The position numbers and the translations under genes were made by a program. From Nesterenkonia sp. PF2B19 (lineage in GTDB: Bacteria; Actinomycetota; Actinomycetes; Actinomycetales; Micrococcaceae): a stretch of DNA of 64,000 bases. Below are positions 54,438-59,758 of the stretch, in pieces. The notes under the pieces are model-generated. The model did not search any database and had not been told where the DNA came from. It worked only from the letters and a program-made list of their open reading frames with translations. The stretch lies in assembly GCF_001758425.2 (NCBI RefSeq), contig NZ_MDSS02000013.1, positions 1 through 64,000 of the forward strand, given 5' to 3'. The stretch's first letter is position 1. Each line of letters begins with the position of its first letter.

Positions 54438-55964
54438 TCAGGCCTTGGACTTCTGCTCGTCGGTCCCCTGCACTTCGGCGAGGATCTTCTCACGCCGGGT
54501 GCCTCGGGCCTTGCCCCAGATTCCCAGACTCACGAGGCCGACGATGATCAGGACCAGGACGAGAGAGAAGGGCCTGGTCACGAAGATCGTGAGGTCCCCG
54601 CCCGAGACCAGCAGGGCACGGCGGAAGTTCTCTTCGATGATCCCGCTGAGCACGAACGCCAGAACGAAGGCAGGGAGGGAGAAACCGAGGTTCCTCATGA
54701 AGTAGGCGATCACACCGACGGTGAGTGCGACCCACAGCTCGAAGCTCGAGGTGTTCGCCGCATAGACGCCGACGATCGAGATGAGCAGCACAGCGGGGAT
54801 CAGCATCTCGCTGGGGAACTTCAGCACCCGCGAGAAGATGGGCGTCACCAGCTTCCCGGAGAAGAACATCGCCACCGAGGTGAGCAGGAAGCCGAAGAGG
54901 ATTCCGTAGGTGAGGGTGGGTTCCTCAGCGAAGATGTTGGGGCCGGGCACGATGCCGTGCATGAGGAACGCCCCCATCACGATCGCGATGGCCGGAGACC
55001 CGGGGACCCCGAGAGTCAGGAGCGGCAGAAGTGAGCCGCCGACGGAGGAGTTGTTGGCTGACTCGGCACCGGCGATGCCCTCAGGACTCCCCTTGCCGAA
55101 CCGGTCCGGGTTCCTGGAGAGCTTCTTCGCCAGGCTGTAGCCGAACCAGGATGCGGTCCCGGAGCCGGTGCCGGGGAAGATGCCGATCAGCGAGCCGATG
55201 ACGCTTCCGCCCGTGGTCGCCTTGGCTGTGGTCCTCAGCTCCGCGAACGGGACCTTCGTCTTCACCGTCAGCGTATCGGGCGCCGGCTGGCTCCCCTTGT
55301 CCCTGATCATGGTGATGACCTCGGAGAAGGCGAACATCCCGAGGATGATCGCCACGAGCGTGAATCCGCTGTAGAGCTCCATCTGGCCCCCGGTGAACCG
55401 CGGATCCCCGGTGATGAGGTCCATTCCCACGGTGCCGACCATGAGCCCCAGGATGGCCGAGATGATGCTGCGTATCAGATCGTGGGAGCTGATCACTGCC
55501 ACGGCGAGGATGCCCAACATGCCGAGCAGGAAGTACTCCGGATAGCTGAGCGTCATCGCGAAGGCCGCGATCGGCACTGCGAGGAACAGCAGCGCCAGAC
55601 CACCGACGAGTCCGCCGATCGTGCTCGCCCACAGCGAGTATCCCAAGGCTTTGCCCGGCATTCCGCTCTGTGCCATCGGATGCCCGTCGAGGATCGTCGC
55701 CACATTCGACGGCGAACCGGGGATCCCCAGGATGATGCTGGAGATCGACCCGCCGTACTCGCTCGACTGATACACGGCCAGCAACAGGAGCACCGCAGGC
55801 AGCGGCGGCAGGAGGAACGAGATGGGCAGGAAGAGGACCAGCACCACCATCGCTCCGACACCCGGGATGGCACCGAAGAACATGCCGGCCAGAGAACCGA
55901 CCAGGATGGCGACGATGTTGAGCGGATCAAAGAGGACCGAGACGTCGAATTCCGTCAAGCCCAT
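54438..55964 (-). CDS. tctA: Tripartite tricarboxylate transporter large membrane subunit TctA
   Basis: 508 residues, about 12 membrane helices. TctA signatures: VGSLAGMFFGAIPGVGAMVVLVLFLPISFLLPPLPAVLLLLAVYQSSEYGGSISSIILGIPGSPSNVATILDGHPMAQ and its inverted repeat GSLIGIFPGTGSGTASWFGY with ESANNSSVGGSLLPLLTLGVPGSPAIAIVMGAFL. With TctB and the TctC receptor it imports a carboxylic acid using an ion gradient. It is 34 bases after tctB and last in the operon. ATG at 55964 after AAAGGACG. Confidence 0.94.
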   Translation of the reverse strand: MGLTEFDVSVLFDPLNIVAILVGSLAGMFFGAIPGVGAMVVLVLFLPISFLLPPLPAVLLLLAVYQSSEYGGSISSIILGIPGSPSNVATILDGHPMAQSGMPGKALGYSLWASTIGGLVGGLALLFLAVPIAAFAMTLSYPEYFLLGMLGILAVAVISSHDLIRSIISAILGLMVGTVGMDLITGDPRFTGGQMELYSGFTLVAIILGMFAFSEVITMIRDKGSQPAPDTLTVKTKVPFAELRTTAKATTGGSVIGSLIGIFPGTGSGTASWFGYSLAKKLSRNPDRFGKGSPEGIAGAESANNSSVGGSLLPLLTLGVPGSPAIAIVMGAFLMHGIVPGPNIFAEEPTLTYGILFGFLLTSVAMFFSGKLVTPIFSRVLKFPSEMLIPAVLLISIVGVYAANTSSFELWVALTVGVIAYFMRNLGFSLPAFVLAFVLSGIIEENFRRALLVSGGDLTIFVTRPFSLVLVLIIVGLVSLGIWGKARGTRREKILAEVQGTDEQKSKA

Positions 55965-55998: not shown

Positions 55999-56466
55999 TC
56001 ATGTCAGGGAGATCCCGAACGTGGCATCGAAGATGAGGTAGACCAGTCCGGTGAGCAGGACGGCGACCAGCCCGAGCCTGGCGATCGCCGGCAGCAGCGG
56101 GGTTCCTCTCTTCAGGGTCAGCACCAGGGAGACCGCCAGGAAGAACAGGACGGTGAACAGGTAGAACAGCGGCTCGATCATGCTCCAGAGCAGGAGGTAG
56201 GCGGCCGTCAGCCCGATGACCAGGATCACCCGGCGGGTGTTCCTTGCCGGGAACGCCTCCCTGTTGGACGTCCTGAACAGCGTCTGGACCAGACTCACCG
56301 TGATGAACAGCAGCAGTGCGCACCCCAGGATCGTGGGGAAGAAGCCGGGGTTCAGGTAGTAGTCCGGCTCCCCGGCCTCCAGGAAGCTCGTTGCGCTGAC
56401 GAGGTACCAGACTCCCGCGGCTGCGAGACCGAGCAGCACGATCAGCTCAACCGATCTGACCTTCAT
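55999..56466 (-). CDS. tctB: Tripartite tricarboxylate transporter small membrane subunit TctB
   Basis: 155 residues with four membrane segments (ELIVLLGLAAAGVWYLVSAT; FFPTILGCALLLFITVSLV; VILVIGLTAAYLLLWSMIEPLFYLFTVLFFLAVSLVL; LGLVAVLLTGLVYLIFDATFGI), as in the TctB family, including the early NPGFFPTI. It supports TctA in the membrane. It is placed 48 bases after tctC and 34 before tctA. Confidence 0.9.
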   Translation of the reverse strand: MKVRSVELIVLLGLAAAGVWYLVSATSFLEAGEPDYYLNPGFFPTILGCALLLFITVSLVQTLFRTSNREAFPARNTRRVILVIGLTAAYLLLWSMIEPLFYLFTVLFFLAVSLVLTLKRGTPLLPAIARLGLVAVLLTGLVYLIFDATFGISLT

Positions 56467-56514
56467 GGATCACCGTCCTTGGTCGAGGAGACGCAGGATG
56501 GGGGTCAGTCCTCA

Positions 56515-57481
56515 TATGCCGAGTAGGTCTCGTAGGTGGCGTCGATCAGCTCCTGGAACTCCTCCGGTCCGGCATAGTCGATGGAGAGGTTCAGGTTCTG
56601 TGCGGCCTCCTCGTAGCCCGGCGTCTCCAGCGCCTCCTGGAAGACATTGTGCAGAGCTCGATGATCTCCGGATCGGTGCCCTCGGGCGCCGCCACTCCCC
56701 GCCAGGAGCTGTGCATGGTGTCCAGCCCCTCCTCGCTCGCCGTGGGGACGTCCGGGAGGCCTTCCAGCCGCTCGTCGTCGAACACCAGGATCGGCTTGAG
56801 ACTGCCCTCGTCGATGGCGGACTGGGCCTCCGTGAGGCCTCCTGCGACGGCACCGTCGATGTGCCCGCCCTGGGCCTGCAGCAGGGCGTCGGCCATGCCG
56901 TCGTGCGGCACGGTGGTGGTCTCGATCCCTGCGGCGGTCGCAAGGTCGCGACTGGTGAAGGCTGTCGTGGTCTCGGCCCCGGAGACGCCGATGCTGACCC
57001 GTCCGGGGTTCTCTTCGGCGTGCTCGACGAAGGAGGCGAAGTCGTCGAAGGGAGCGTCAGCGTTGACGAGCAGCACGTGGGGCTCACTGTTGATCAGGAT
57101 GACCGGCTCGAAGGACTCGTGGGTGTAGGGCACGTTGTTGAACATCGGATTGGTGATGATCGACGGCGTGACCAGCAGCAGGGTGTGCCCATCCGGGTCC
57201 GCCTGGGCCCCCTCAGCCTGACCCACGGAGCCCGAGCTGCCGTCGATGTTCTCGATGACGAAGTCGTAGTCCTCGGCCACAGTCTCTGTGTGTTCGGCCA
57301 GCATGCGGGCCAGCGAGTCGTTCGCCCCTCCGGCGGCGAAGGCTGTGATGAAGGTGATGGTCTCGTCGGGGAAGCTCTCGGCGTCCCCTCCGTCAGCCTG
57401 TCCGCCGCAGGCGGTCAGGGCCAGGGCCGGCAGGGCCAGCAGTCCGGTGATGAGTGTGGTGCGGCTGTGGGTCTTCTTCAT
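56515..57481 (-). CDS. tctC: Tripartite tricarboxylate transporter substrate-binding protein TctC, one frameshift
   Basis: About 322 residues. Signal peptide with lipobox (LALPALALTACGG), then the Bug-receptor fold: ITFITAFAAGGANDSLARMLAEH, VENIDGSSGSVGQAEGAQADPDGHTLLLVTPSIITNPMF and GGHIDGAVAGGLTEAQSAID. The frame breaks near 56655. One added base restores IIELCTNVFQEALETPGYEEAAQNLNLSIDYAGPEEFQELIDATYETYSAYED, with the stop at 56515. It captures the substrate outside the cell. The usual Bug carboxylate-binding loop is present but does not reveal which acid is bound. Confidence 0.86.
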
Positions 57482-57517
57482 GGTTCCTCCCAAGTGGTGG
57501 AATGACGTCGTCGTGGT

Positions 57518-58861
57518 CTAGGTGGTGCTTCGGATGGATTCGCGCCGCGCGGATTCCTCGGCCAGGACTGCTTCGGCGGCCTCTGCTGCGGCGGTGGCCT
57601 CCTCTGGGGGCAGGAAGAGGATGCCCTCGGCATCGGCGACCACGATGTCACCGGGGTTGCATACAGCATGACCCACAGCGACAGGACGCCCGAGCCGGGC
57701 GGGTCCTGATTTGTAGGGACCGGCAGCAGAGACGCCGGCCGCCCAAACAGGCAGGCCCACCTCGGCGATGCCGGCGGCATCACGGACTGGGGCGTCGAGG
57801 ATCATTCCGGCCACCCCGGCCTTCTTCGCCCGCTCAGCGATCAGATCTCCGATCAGGGCACGTTCGCGGCCCCGCTCCCCGGAGACCACGAGGATCTGCC
57901 CGGGCTTCACCCGGGCCAGGGCCTGATGGATGGCGAAGTTGTCGCCGGCCTGGGTCTGGACCGTCAGCGCCGGGCCCGCGATCTGCGGGCAGTCCCACAC
58001 CGGACGCAGGTCAGCGCCGACGAACCCCAGACGGTCGCTGCCGTCCCCGAGGGCCGCGGTGGGCGTACGCCGCAGGACCTCGAGAGCCGGTGAGACGTCC
58101 TCGGCCCGTCGGGCCAGCAGCAGGTGCCGTTCCCGTGCGCCCCAGGTCATCGGCCAGGTGCCCTCCAGGTCCTGGATGAGCTCAAGGCTGTCGGCCAGCT
58201 CCTGGCTGCGCCGACGAGCATGGATCCGAATGCCGCTGTCCAGACGGTCCACTGTGGACTCGCCGCCGACCAGCGCCTCGGCCATCTGCTGGCGCACCCA
58301 CTGCTCGTCACCTGCGCCGGCCGCGGCCTCCAGGGACTCCTGGACCAGCGCGCTGAGCCCTTTCATGAAGATGCTGCGCAGCAGCTTCCGCCGGGAGGCA
58401 TCTCCCACCTGGGCGCCGAGGATCTCGGTGCGCGTGCCGACCCTGCTGAGCTGCTGTTCGACCTCACCGCTGGAAGCTCCCGAGAGGAGGACCTGCACGG
58501 TGGCGCCGAAGGCACGCACCGAGCCGATGACTGCCCCGTCGACGACCTGCGCGGCACCTTCAAGGACCGTCTCGACGGACTTCTTCACCTCCGGCGAGGA
58601 GGCGTTGAGATCCAGGTACAGCACACCAGGAGACAGAGCGGCCCGACACTGCTCCGCCGCCGCGACGGCGAAGCGCGCGGTGGTCAGCGACAGCACCATC
58701 TCCGCCTCCGCCACGGCCTCGGCCGCTGTGTCAGCACGGACGACGCCGTCGGGAGTCCTGGCCGGACCAGGATCGAATCCCACGACGTGGTCTCCCGCCT
58801 GAGCGAAGGCCCGGGCGAAGACCTGACCCGCCTCACCGAGCCCGAGAACTGCTACAGTCAT
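57518..58861 (-). CDS. Fusion enzyme: NAD-dependent dehydrogenase (6PGDH-like/DUF1932) plus RraA-like aldolase
   Basis: 447 residues in two complete enzymes. Residues 1-255: Rossmann motif AVLGLGEAGQVFARAFAQAG, then a DUF1932-type C-terminal domain (GDASRRKLLRSIFMKGLSALVQESLEAAAGAG) as in 3-hydroxyacid dehydrogenases. Residues about 258-445: RraA/HMG-CHA aldolase fold (LRRTPTAALGDGSDRLG; GERGRERALIGDLIAERAKKAGVAGMILDAPVRD, near residues 330-357). It keeps the G-D-L loop and the Arg-Asp pair that bind metal and the pyruvyl group in that family. No start codon or ribosome site lies at the junction, so this is a real fusion. It probably oxidises a hydroxy-acid and cleaves or decarboxylates the oxo-acid product (inference). 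It leads the tctCBA operon. Confidence 0.88.
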   Translation of the reverse strand: MTVAVLGLGEAGQVFARAFAQAGDHVVGFDPGPARTPDGVVRADTAAEAVAEAEMVLSLTTARFAVAAAEQCRAALSPGVLYLDLNASSPEVKKSVETVLEGAAQVVDGAVIGSVRAFGATVQVLLSGASSGEVEQQLSRVGTRTEILGAQVGDASRRKLLRSIFMKGLSALVQESLEAAAGAGDEQWVRQQMAEALVGGESTVDRLDSGIRIHARRRSQELADSLELIQDLEGTWPMTWGARERHLLLARRAEDVSPALEVLRRTPTAALGDGSDRLGFVGADLRPVWDCPQIAGPALTVQTQAGDNFAIHQALARVKPGQILVVSGERGRERALIGDLIAERAKKAGVAGMILDAPVRDAAGIAEVGLPVWAAGVSAAGPYKSGPARLGRPVAVGHAVCNPGDIVVADAEGILFLPPEEATAAAEAAEAVLAEESARRESIRSTT

Positions 58862-58889
58862 CAATGCCTCTCACTGAGTGATAGTTGCT

Positions 58890-58902
58890 CTCATCTTATG
58901 AG
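58890..58902. promoter_or_regulatory. Candidate IclR operator in the divergent promoter region
   Basis: CTCAT-CTT-ATGAG is a perfect dyad midway between the divergent fusion-enzyme and IclR genes. A second short dyad, GTTG-T-CAAC, lies at 58932-58940. The region is notably A/T-rich for this genome. Confidence 0.5.
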
Positions 58903-59008
58903 TGTGCTTACCATCACATGGCATCGAGTGTGTTGTCAACCACCCCTCCATCAGGAGGCACACTCGTGGAGAATGAAGGGGCGCATCGGTCAAGACGACA
59001 GGAGAGAC

Positions 59009-59758
59009 ATGAACGCGTCGGGCAACAAGGGACGCACGCTCGAGCGTGCGTTCGACGTGCTGCGAGCTCTGGAGAATGCGCGGTCACCGATCCGGCTCAG
59101 CGAGGTCTCCCGCGAGACGGGCCTGCACATCGCGACCGCTCAGCGGATCATGGCCACATTGGTGGGGAGCGGCTACGCCCAGACCTCGGAGAACGGCTAC
59201 ACGCTCGGCCCCGTGGCGCTGGCTCAGGCTCACGCCTTCGTGCTGCAGGACCCCCTGGTCAAGGCCGCACGCCCCGTCCTGACCGAGCTCTCGGACTCGA
59301 CCGGCCTGACGGCATCGATCTTCGTGCGCTCCGGCTTCGACCGGATCCTGACGGCACGCGTGGAGGCGCCGGAGCCGATGCGCTACCAGTTCCCGATCGG
59401 CCGGCGCCTCCCCCTGGACGTCGGGGCCGGCAAGCCGCTGCTCGCGCACCTCACAGATGAGGAACTCCAGGAGTACCTCGAGGACTACCCCGGAGTGCGG
59501 CTCGCCTCAGGGGAGCACCAGACGTCCGAGAGCCTGCGCGCGGAGCTGAGCGAGATCCGGGAGTCCGGGTACCACCTGGGCGTTTCCGAACGCGTGCTCG
59601 GCACGGTGAGCGTCGCCGCTGTGGTGCGCAGTGCTCGCGGCGAGGCAGCAGGCGTCCTGAACATCGTCGCCCACGACGACACTGTCAGCGTGGACACGCT
59701 GCGCCGCAGGATCCCCGAGGTGCTGCGAGCGGCCGAGCTCATCGGACAGCAGATCTGA
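59009..59758 (+). CDS. IclR family transcriptional regulator
   Basis: 249 residues from ATG at 59009 (AGGAGAG upstream). Winged HTH: LERAFDVLRALENARSPIRLSEVSRETGLHIATAQRIMATLVGSGYAQTSENGYTLG. Effector domain: FPIGRRLPLDVGAGKPLLAHLTDEELQEYL and LGVSERVLGTVSVAAVVRSARGEAAGVLNIV. IclR proteins usually sense an acid substrate of the adjacent genes. Divergent from the fusion-enzyme/tctCBA operon by 147 bases, so it is its likely regulator. Confidence 0.9.
   Translation: MNASGNKGRTLERAFDVLRALENARSPIRLSEVSRETGLHIATAQRIMATLVGSGYAQTSENGYTLGPVALAQAHAFVLQDPLVKAARPVLTELSDSTGLTASIFVRSGFDRILTARVEAPEPMRYQFPIGRRLPLDVGAGKPLLAHLTDEELQEYLEDYPGVRLASGEHQTSESLRAELSEIRESGYHLGVSERVLGTVSVAAVVRSARGEAAGVLNIVAHDDTVSVDTLRRRIPEVLRAAELIGQQI

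Follow-up and report, generated by a model that had tools for sequence, protein, structure and literature searches.

The window analysed here is a stretch of 64,000 nucleotides from Nesterenkonia sp. PF2B19, in which a single open reading frame joins a dehydrogenase to an RraA-like aldolase beside genes for an organic acid importer and an IclR-family regulator. The locus raises the question of whether the two enzymes are really encoded as one protein and, if so, which reactions such a protein would carry out and on what kind of substrate. The features on which the following analysis draws are listed in Table 1.

Table 1. Coordinates of the features of the fused dehydrogenase/aldolase locus in the window.
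Feature	Position	Strand	Remarks
TctA	54438..55964	-	Pfam
TctB	55999..56466	-	Pfam
TctC-type binding protein, two frames	56508..57493	-	ORF 56591-57493 and C-terminal part 56508-56660
Fused dehydrogenase / RraA-like aldolase	57518..58861	-	447 aa and stop, start ATG at 58861
RraA-like aldolase half, residues 256-447	57521..58096	-	N308, D339, R360-D361 and K384 align with N71, D102, R123-D124 and K147 of 3NOJ
Dehydrogenase half, residues 1-250	58112..58861	-	GLGEAG nucleotide loop, D30 after strand 2, K159-x-x-R162, K167-G168
Palindromic operator-like site TATCACTCAGTGAGAG	58868..58883	-	Shortly before the start codon; conserved among the fused loci
Second inverted repeat CTCATAAGATGAG	58890..58902	-	Upstream of the TATCACTCAGTGAGAG site; also in the relative L057
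TTGACA, candidate -35 box of the operon	58934..58939	-	Sequence
Divergent IclR-family regulator	59009..59758	+	Pfam HTH_IclR 55.4 bits and IclR_C 91 bits, both over cutoff

Regarding domain content, the predicted protein scores over the Pfam cutoffs for NAD_binding_2 (PF03446; 27.5 bits, cutoff 21) and RraA-like (PF03737; 127.8 bits, cutoff 24.5), in agreement with a sequence-only reading of the locus that had described one chain holding both a dehydrogenase and an RraA-like aldolase. The score for DUF1932 (PF09130) lies under its cutoff (20.7 bits, cutoff 25); despite this, the dehydrogenase half is nearest to the DUF1932 group on the basis of its fold and of sequence matches to PDB entries, with residues 3-230 matching 1I36 and further matches to 4EZB and 3QSG, while residues 258-438 match the HMG/CHA aldolase 3NOJ. 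The AlphaFold2 model of the fused protein has a mean pLDDT of 91.4 and a pTM of 0.67, at which the orientation of the two halves is less sure, and Foldseek ranked 4EZB first, 3QSG second, 1I36 third and 3NOJ fourth for this model. The DUF1932-type NAD-binding dehydrogenases 1I36 (MTH1747), 3QSG and 4EZB have the fold and the K-x-x-R / KG motif in common with the N-terminal half but were solved as stand-alone proteins, and their entry titles name no tested substrate.

The same reading had argued that the frame is not two genes merged by an error, on the ground that the junction lacks a start codon. This ground does not hold, as an in-frame ATG is found at the fusion junction (residue 238) with GGAGG 12-16 bases upstream of it, but the conclusion is borne out independently by the presence of 57 fused ORFs in many independent assemblies, which rules out both an assembly error and a merged gene pair. 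These ORFs, 50 of them distinct, were found among 131 loci from related genomes, GTDB genome contigs and plasmids that were examined together. The suggested search for the same two-domain architecture and the mapping of its neighbours thus yielded 50 distinct fused proteins in a conserved locus, and the homologues are not always two separate genes.

All fused proteins seen belong to Actinomycetota, with hosts in the genera Nocardiopsis, Streptomonospora, Brevibacterium, Pseudoclavibacter, Rhodococcus, Mycolicibacterium, Prauserella, Saccharopolyspora, Amycolatopsis, Streptomyces and Aeromicrobium, the material from beyond this phylum being limited to the plasmid records listed and a few loci of other phyla from the GTDB contig scan. 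The best 20 of the 845 plasmid records with a match all show two pieces and no fusion. The distribution of the fusion is patchy. Within the window's genus it was detected in 2 of 30 genomes. At family level (245 genomes), 6 of 28 new loci are fused, the window being the seventh (five further places have no locus, with open frames of 270-333 aa); at class level (394 genomes), 10 of 30 loci are fused, window included (two further places have no locus); and at phylum level (396 genomes), none of 8 new loci is fused, three further places being loci already in the set, two of them fused. Scanning the GTDB contigs with a single protein gave no confirmed locus, and the scan with alignment A2 gave 79 loci of which 41 are fused, a proportion that is not a frequency since the patterns from this alignment favour the fused group.

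In a tree of the dehydrogenase halves (rows scoring 90 bits or more and spanning 200 or more residues) a single branch (SH-aLRT 99) divides the 50 fused rows from 58 separate ones, and in a tree of the aldolase halves (80 bits or more, 140 or more residues) a single branch (SH-aLRT 84) likewise divides them from 55 separate ones; identical rows were used once, and both trees are unrooted quick searches without bootstrap in each of which some long branches meet. A single fusion event is the simplest reading of both trees. A phage origin was rejected, as the dehydrogenase half has no match in phages and viral contigs gave two RraA-only matches (38% identity, residues 285-416). Among the matches listed from the open-licence literature, judged by title or the start of the abstract, no description of the fusion was recognised.

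Several variants were observed in the course of this survey. In the fusion of Nocardiopsis eucommiae (L146) the aldolase half loses the family sequence at its C-terminal end, as a frameshift would cause, and two regions (L168 and L061) carry the fusion plus separate dehydrogenase and RraA genes. Many long ORFs of about 500-600 aa in congeneric genomes (L014-L020 and others) match the RraA half and possibly belong to the PRK12764 fumarylacetoacetate hydrolase family. Further RraA-like matches are present in the window's genome on contigs C79, C99, C112 and C41 (L072, L073), the one on C99 lying near genes labelled as a TRAP large permease and an aldehyde dehydrogenase.

In many loci the dehydrogenase and RraA genes are unfused but adjacent or close together, both being found within 1.5 kb flanks in 7/30, 6/8 and 15/28 sampled loci. 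Separate RraA-DUF1932 pairs, such as those of Rhizobium daejeonense, Thermus oshimai, Acidovorax carolinensis and Arthrobacter StoSoilB13, resemble the fusion in having the same two families side by side but consist of two genes; among 11 plasmid records, the aldolase leads in 8 and the dehydrogenase in 3, whereas the fusion has the dehydrogenase first. One unfused pair adjoins an alpha-hydroxy acid oxidase. The unfused group that is closer to the fusion by its aldolase signature is found with TctA/TctC, DctM, cyclase and IclR genes, or with ABC transporter, HD-domain, cyclase and DUF6282 genes. A more distant unfused group occurs with O-demethylases, extradiol dioxygenases, 4-oxalomesaconate (OMA) tautomerase, PIG-L and DUF6282 proteins. 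This setting resembles that of gallate/protocatechuate meta-cleavage, and many of the two-gene versions are found in clusters of this type. Both settings are joined in Rhizobium daejeonense, where PIG-L, CHA aldolase, DUF1932, TctA, TctC, TctB and OMA tautomerase genes stand in a row. The pairing is widespread and the fusion, as far as unrooted trees allow, looks like a later variant of the separate pair; the architecture itself is real and conserved, and is a variant of a known enzyme pair.

In a number of actinobacterial clusters (L120-L123, L180-L204) a DUF1932-type dehydrogenase is encoded with O-demethylase, dioxygenase, PIG-L, DUF6282 or tautomerase genes. Because no LigC-type (Gfo/Idh) gene is labelled in them, the dehydrogenase may fill the LigC step there, although several of these clusters also encode an aldehyde dehydrogenase.

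Regarding transport, the claim that an acid importer and an IclR regulator lie beside the fused gene agrees with the present results, as TctC, TctB and TctA are all over the Pfam cutoffs, follow the fused gene on the same strand and are complemented by the divergent regulator. The fused gene had further been described as leading a TctCBA operon, which is correct for the order and strand of the genes but needs qualification in two respects: TctC is frame-shifted, and TctCBA is not the typical partner of the fusion. The frame switch lies at about 56657-56660, the relative L057 has an unbroken TctC, and the split in the window is either a sequencing error in the draft assembly or a recent loss. 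The gene order is conserved, in that a script-based count of neighbours found a DctM-type permease next door, on the same strand and after the fused gene, in 46/50 distinct fused loci, a count that misses the DctM of L066 (labelled in the gene list, with an overlap with the fused ORF) and in which L177 could not show a neighbour, its contig stopping 40 bases past the gene. TctC and TctA stand there instead in just 2/50 loci, those of the window and its congener L057, and TctCBA was rejected as a family-wide partner. A representative of the DctM-like proteins reached 163.6 bits on Pfam DctM but only 63 against a cutoff of 268 on NCBIfam dctM, and is therefore a divergent member. A cyclase-family gene follows in 15/50 distinct fused loci by the same script.

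The best NCBIfam match of the window's IclR protein is PcaR/PcaU/PobR, under the cutoff (147 bits, cutoff 284.75). An IclR gene is divergent and adjacent in 36/50 distinct fused loci and lies within 5 kb in 47/50, as counted by the script, which did not include the window's own IclR gene (present, with an overlap with the fused ORF). Upstream of the fused genes, TTGAC is found within 110 bases of the start in 48/50 and TTGACA in 29/50. The palindrome TATCA-N4-RTGATA, of which TATCACTCAGTGAGAG is the form in the window, is conserved: it occurs with at most one mismatch in 36/50 upstream regions against 0/1000 shuffles and with at most two mismatches in 47/50 against 25/1000, counts which show conservation rather than independence since the 50 regions are related. 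In the window's genome (G000) the pattern has one exact match, at the window operon, and the site of the same operon in the genome G003 has one mismatch. A wider regulon was rejected, as every match elsewhere in these two genomes has two mismatches and the counts are like those of a reversed-pattern control (12 versus 9 in G000, 15 versus 22 in G003). One such two-mismatch site, TTTCACAGAGTGAGAA, is identical at G000:C11:84087 and G003:C1:1491773 and is perhaps a site of another regulator.

Regarding the dehydrogenase half, the motif RK-x-x-R-x(4)-KG is present in 50/50 distinct fused proteins, the glycine loop is kept and D30 is invariant in the 24 aligned proteins (24/24), which suggests NAD(H) as the cofactor. 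The classical beta-hydroxyacid dehydrogenase signature has a catalytic Lys and an Asn three residues on. In the fused proteins the Lys is kept in 50/50 and Arg stands in place of the Asn in 50/50, so that the aligned residues depart from the classical signature. A search of the open-licence literature for DUF1932 as a word returned only titles on venom allergens and autoantigen epitopes.

In the aldolase half, the equivalents of the 3NOJ residues R40, N71, R123 and D124 are kept in 50/50 distinct fused proteins, those of G144 and K147 in 49/50 and that of H75 in 46/50. The equivalent of D102 is Asp in the window and L057 and Glu in the other 48/50; D102 and D124 presumably bind the metal. The active-site elements G-D-L and R-D named by the sequence-only reading are present in the window, but the G-D reads G-E in 48/50 distinct fused proteins. 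Single members deviate, and family-wide loss of catalytic residues was found in neither half. Among the other positions, the equivalents of E36 and T145 are Asp and Pro, respectively, in 50/50, V146 is also changed, and that of R195 is Val in 48/50, the R195 column lying in the variable C-terminal helix and being the weakest of these. The QGTVK loop of 3NOJ reads GP[YT][KR]xGP in 48/50 fused, 12/15 close unfused and 6/43 other proteins. The fused protein has the fold and the R40, N71, R123, D124, G144 and K147 equivalents in common with the HMG/CHA aldolases (LigK, PmdF, GalC; 3NOJ), and differs from them in these substitutions as well as in the added dehydrogenase.

Comparison with family models gave scores of 126.1 bits for TIGR02798 (cutoff 304.5) and 137.6 bits for PRK09262 (cutoff 179), both under cutoff. 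Among the NCBIfam models the aldolase half scores highest, at 192 bits, on PRK06201 (NF004850), an RraA-like family named hypothetical protein, but the window protein is under its cutoff of 231 and the model, with 222 positions, has no dehydrogenase part. The hexulose-6-phosphate synthase-RraA protein (PRK07028) and the PRK12764 fumarylacetoacetate hydrolase family are likewise longer enzymes in which the stretch matching RraA lies C-terminally, but with another partner domain, and the window protein scores 84 (cutoff 593) and 74 (cutoff 444) against them.

For the HMG/CHA aldolase of Pseudomonas putida, PMC5065237 gives a 181-fold reduction of kcat by R123K and a 1114-fold reduction by N71A and K147A, proposes N71 and K147 as binders of the CHA C5-carboxylate, and proposes a phosphate site 1 formed by R40, R123, G144, T145 and R195. 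Because T145 and R195 of this site, the latter in its variable helix, are replaced nearly family-wide (with R40, R123 and G144 kept), the fused aldolase half is probably not a CHA aldolase, and the same two changes lead us to predict, with caution, little phosphate activation and a substrate other than CHA. The sequence-only reading had put forward a branched or hydroxylated di- or tricarboxylic acid as the putative substrate. The departures at T145, V146 and R195 speak against 4-hydroxy-4-methyl-2-oxoglutarate-type acids as the exact substrate, and the kept N71 and K147 equivalents speak for some polycarboxylate. With Glu, Pro and Val in place of D102, T145 and R195, the aldolase half may have a changed activity or one limited to decarboxylation. 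Another RraA-family protein, FlDet, is a dehydratase/decarboxylase according to PMC8563752.

The reading that we consider probable is a bifunctional catabolic enzyme, in which an imported acid would undergo NAD+-dependent oxidation before its product is cleaved or decarboxylated, encoded in an operon that IclR would control. The organic acid would enter via the neighbouring permease (TctCBA in the window, DctM-type in nearly all relatives), and the N-terminal half, as a DUF1932-type relative of the beta-hydroxyacid dehydrogenases, would use NAD+ to oxidise a hydroxyl group. The second half, as a class II pyruvate aldolase that has the RraA fold and depends on a metal, would then cleave or decarboxylate the 2-oxo acid via a pyruvate-enolate intermediate, with pyruvate as the product. 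IclR would control the operon from the palindrome just before the start codon. The predicted substrate class is that of the 2-hydroxy di- or tricarboxylates, and the cyclase-family hydrolase encoded nearby in some species would perhaps liberate such an acid there.

A possible alternative, though on the unlikely side, is a malic-enzyme-like fusion, whose first half would oxidise a malate-type 2-hydroxy acid and whose second half would only decarboxylate the oxaloacetate-like product without aldol cleavage. According to PMC5065237, oxaloacetate too is decarboxylated by the HMG/CHA aldolase, by way of the same enolate, and the changes at T145, V146 and R195 would fit such a loss of cleavage, but N71 and K147, which matter for the cleavage of HMG, are kept.

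Unlikely, in our estimate, is a LigC-like role, in which the dehydrogenase half would oxidise an aldehyde or lactol as in protocatechuate 4,5-cleavage and the fusion would scavenge acids of ring cleavage, for instance PDC, OMA or CHA, that other bacteria release. This would be consistent with the meta-cleavage-type genes around unfused relatives (O-demethylases, extradiol dioxygenases, 4-oxalomesaconate tautomerase and PIG-L), with the sub-cutoff PcaR/PobR match of the IclR protein and with the retention of the residues proposed, in PMC5065237, to bind the CHA C5-carboxylate. Against it stand the replacement of the QGTVK loop in 48/50 fused proteins and a comparison of ten meta-cleavage cluster reference genes with the 50 fused loci, which gave two weak and far-off matches, both in L114 (56-57 bits). 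OMA tautomerase was over the cutoff in 1/16 fused-type genomes and below it in 4 more (19 genomes searched), although this marker is imperfect, having no match in two genomes with meta-cleavage-type clusters and matching 2/14 control genomes. The LigB domain is over the cutoff in 8/16 fused-type genomes but also in 4/14 control genomes and so lacks specificity; neither OMA tautomerase nor the LigB domain has a match in the genome of the window itself.

We also regard as improbable a reverse order, with the aldolase step preceding the dehydrogenase step, so that the carbonyl product set free by cleavage would be converted by a dehydrogenase working, for instance, as a reductase of the glyoxylate or semialdehyde type. 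Tartronate semialdehyde and glyoxylate reductases do appear among the Foldseek matches of the dehydrogenase half, but D30 suggests NAD(H), which is usual for oxidation, and the halves stand with the dehydrogenase first, itself weak evidence. A role of the RraA half as a non-enzymatic RNase regulator, which would draw on the fold common to E. coli RraA, is highly improbable and was rejected on the model scores (23 bits against a cutoff of 241 for RraA_entero, TIGR02998, compared with 126-192 bits for the PRK06201 and LigK-type models, themselves below cutoffs) and the conserved catalytic residues, the transport-operon setting also speaking against it.

Returning to the oxidation of an imported acid followed by its cleavage, a wider interpretation can be offered tentatively, namely that a bifunctional actinobacterial enzyme of single origin could represent an undescribed pathway in which an imported hydroxy-polycarboxylate is first oxidised and then cleaved, the intermediate passing from the active site of the dehydrogenase to that of the aldolase. 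Two enzymes fused in one chain are strong evidence of sequential action and therefore offer a handle on DUF1932. As the substrate should yield a 2-oxo acid on oxidation and this should then be cut, the operon narrows the chemicals to be tested to a short list and also offers a ready inducer assay. If true, the oxidise-then-cleave pathway would give the DUF1932 family an assigned substrate.
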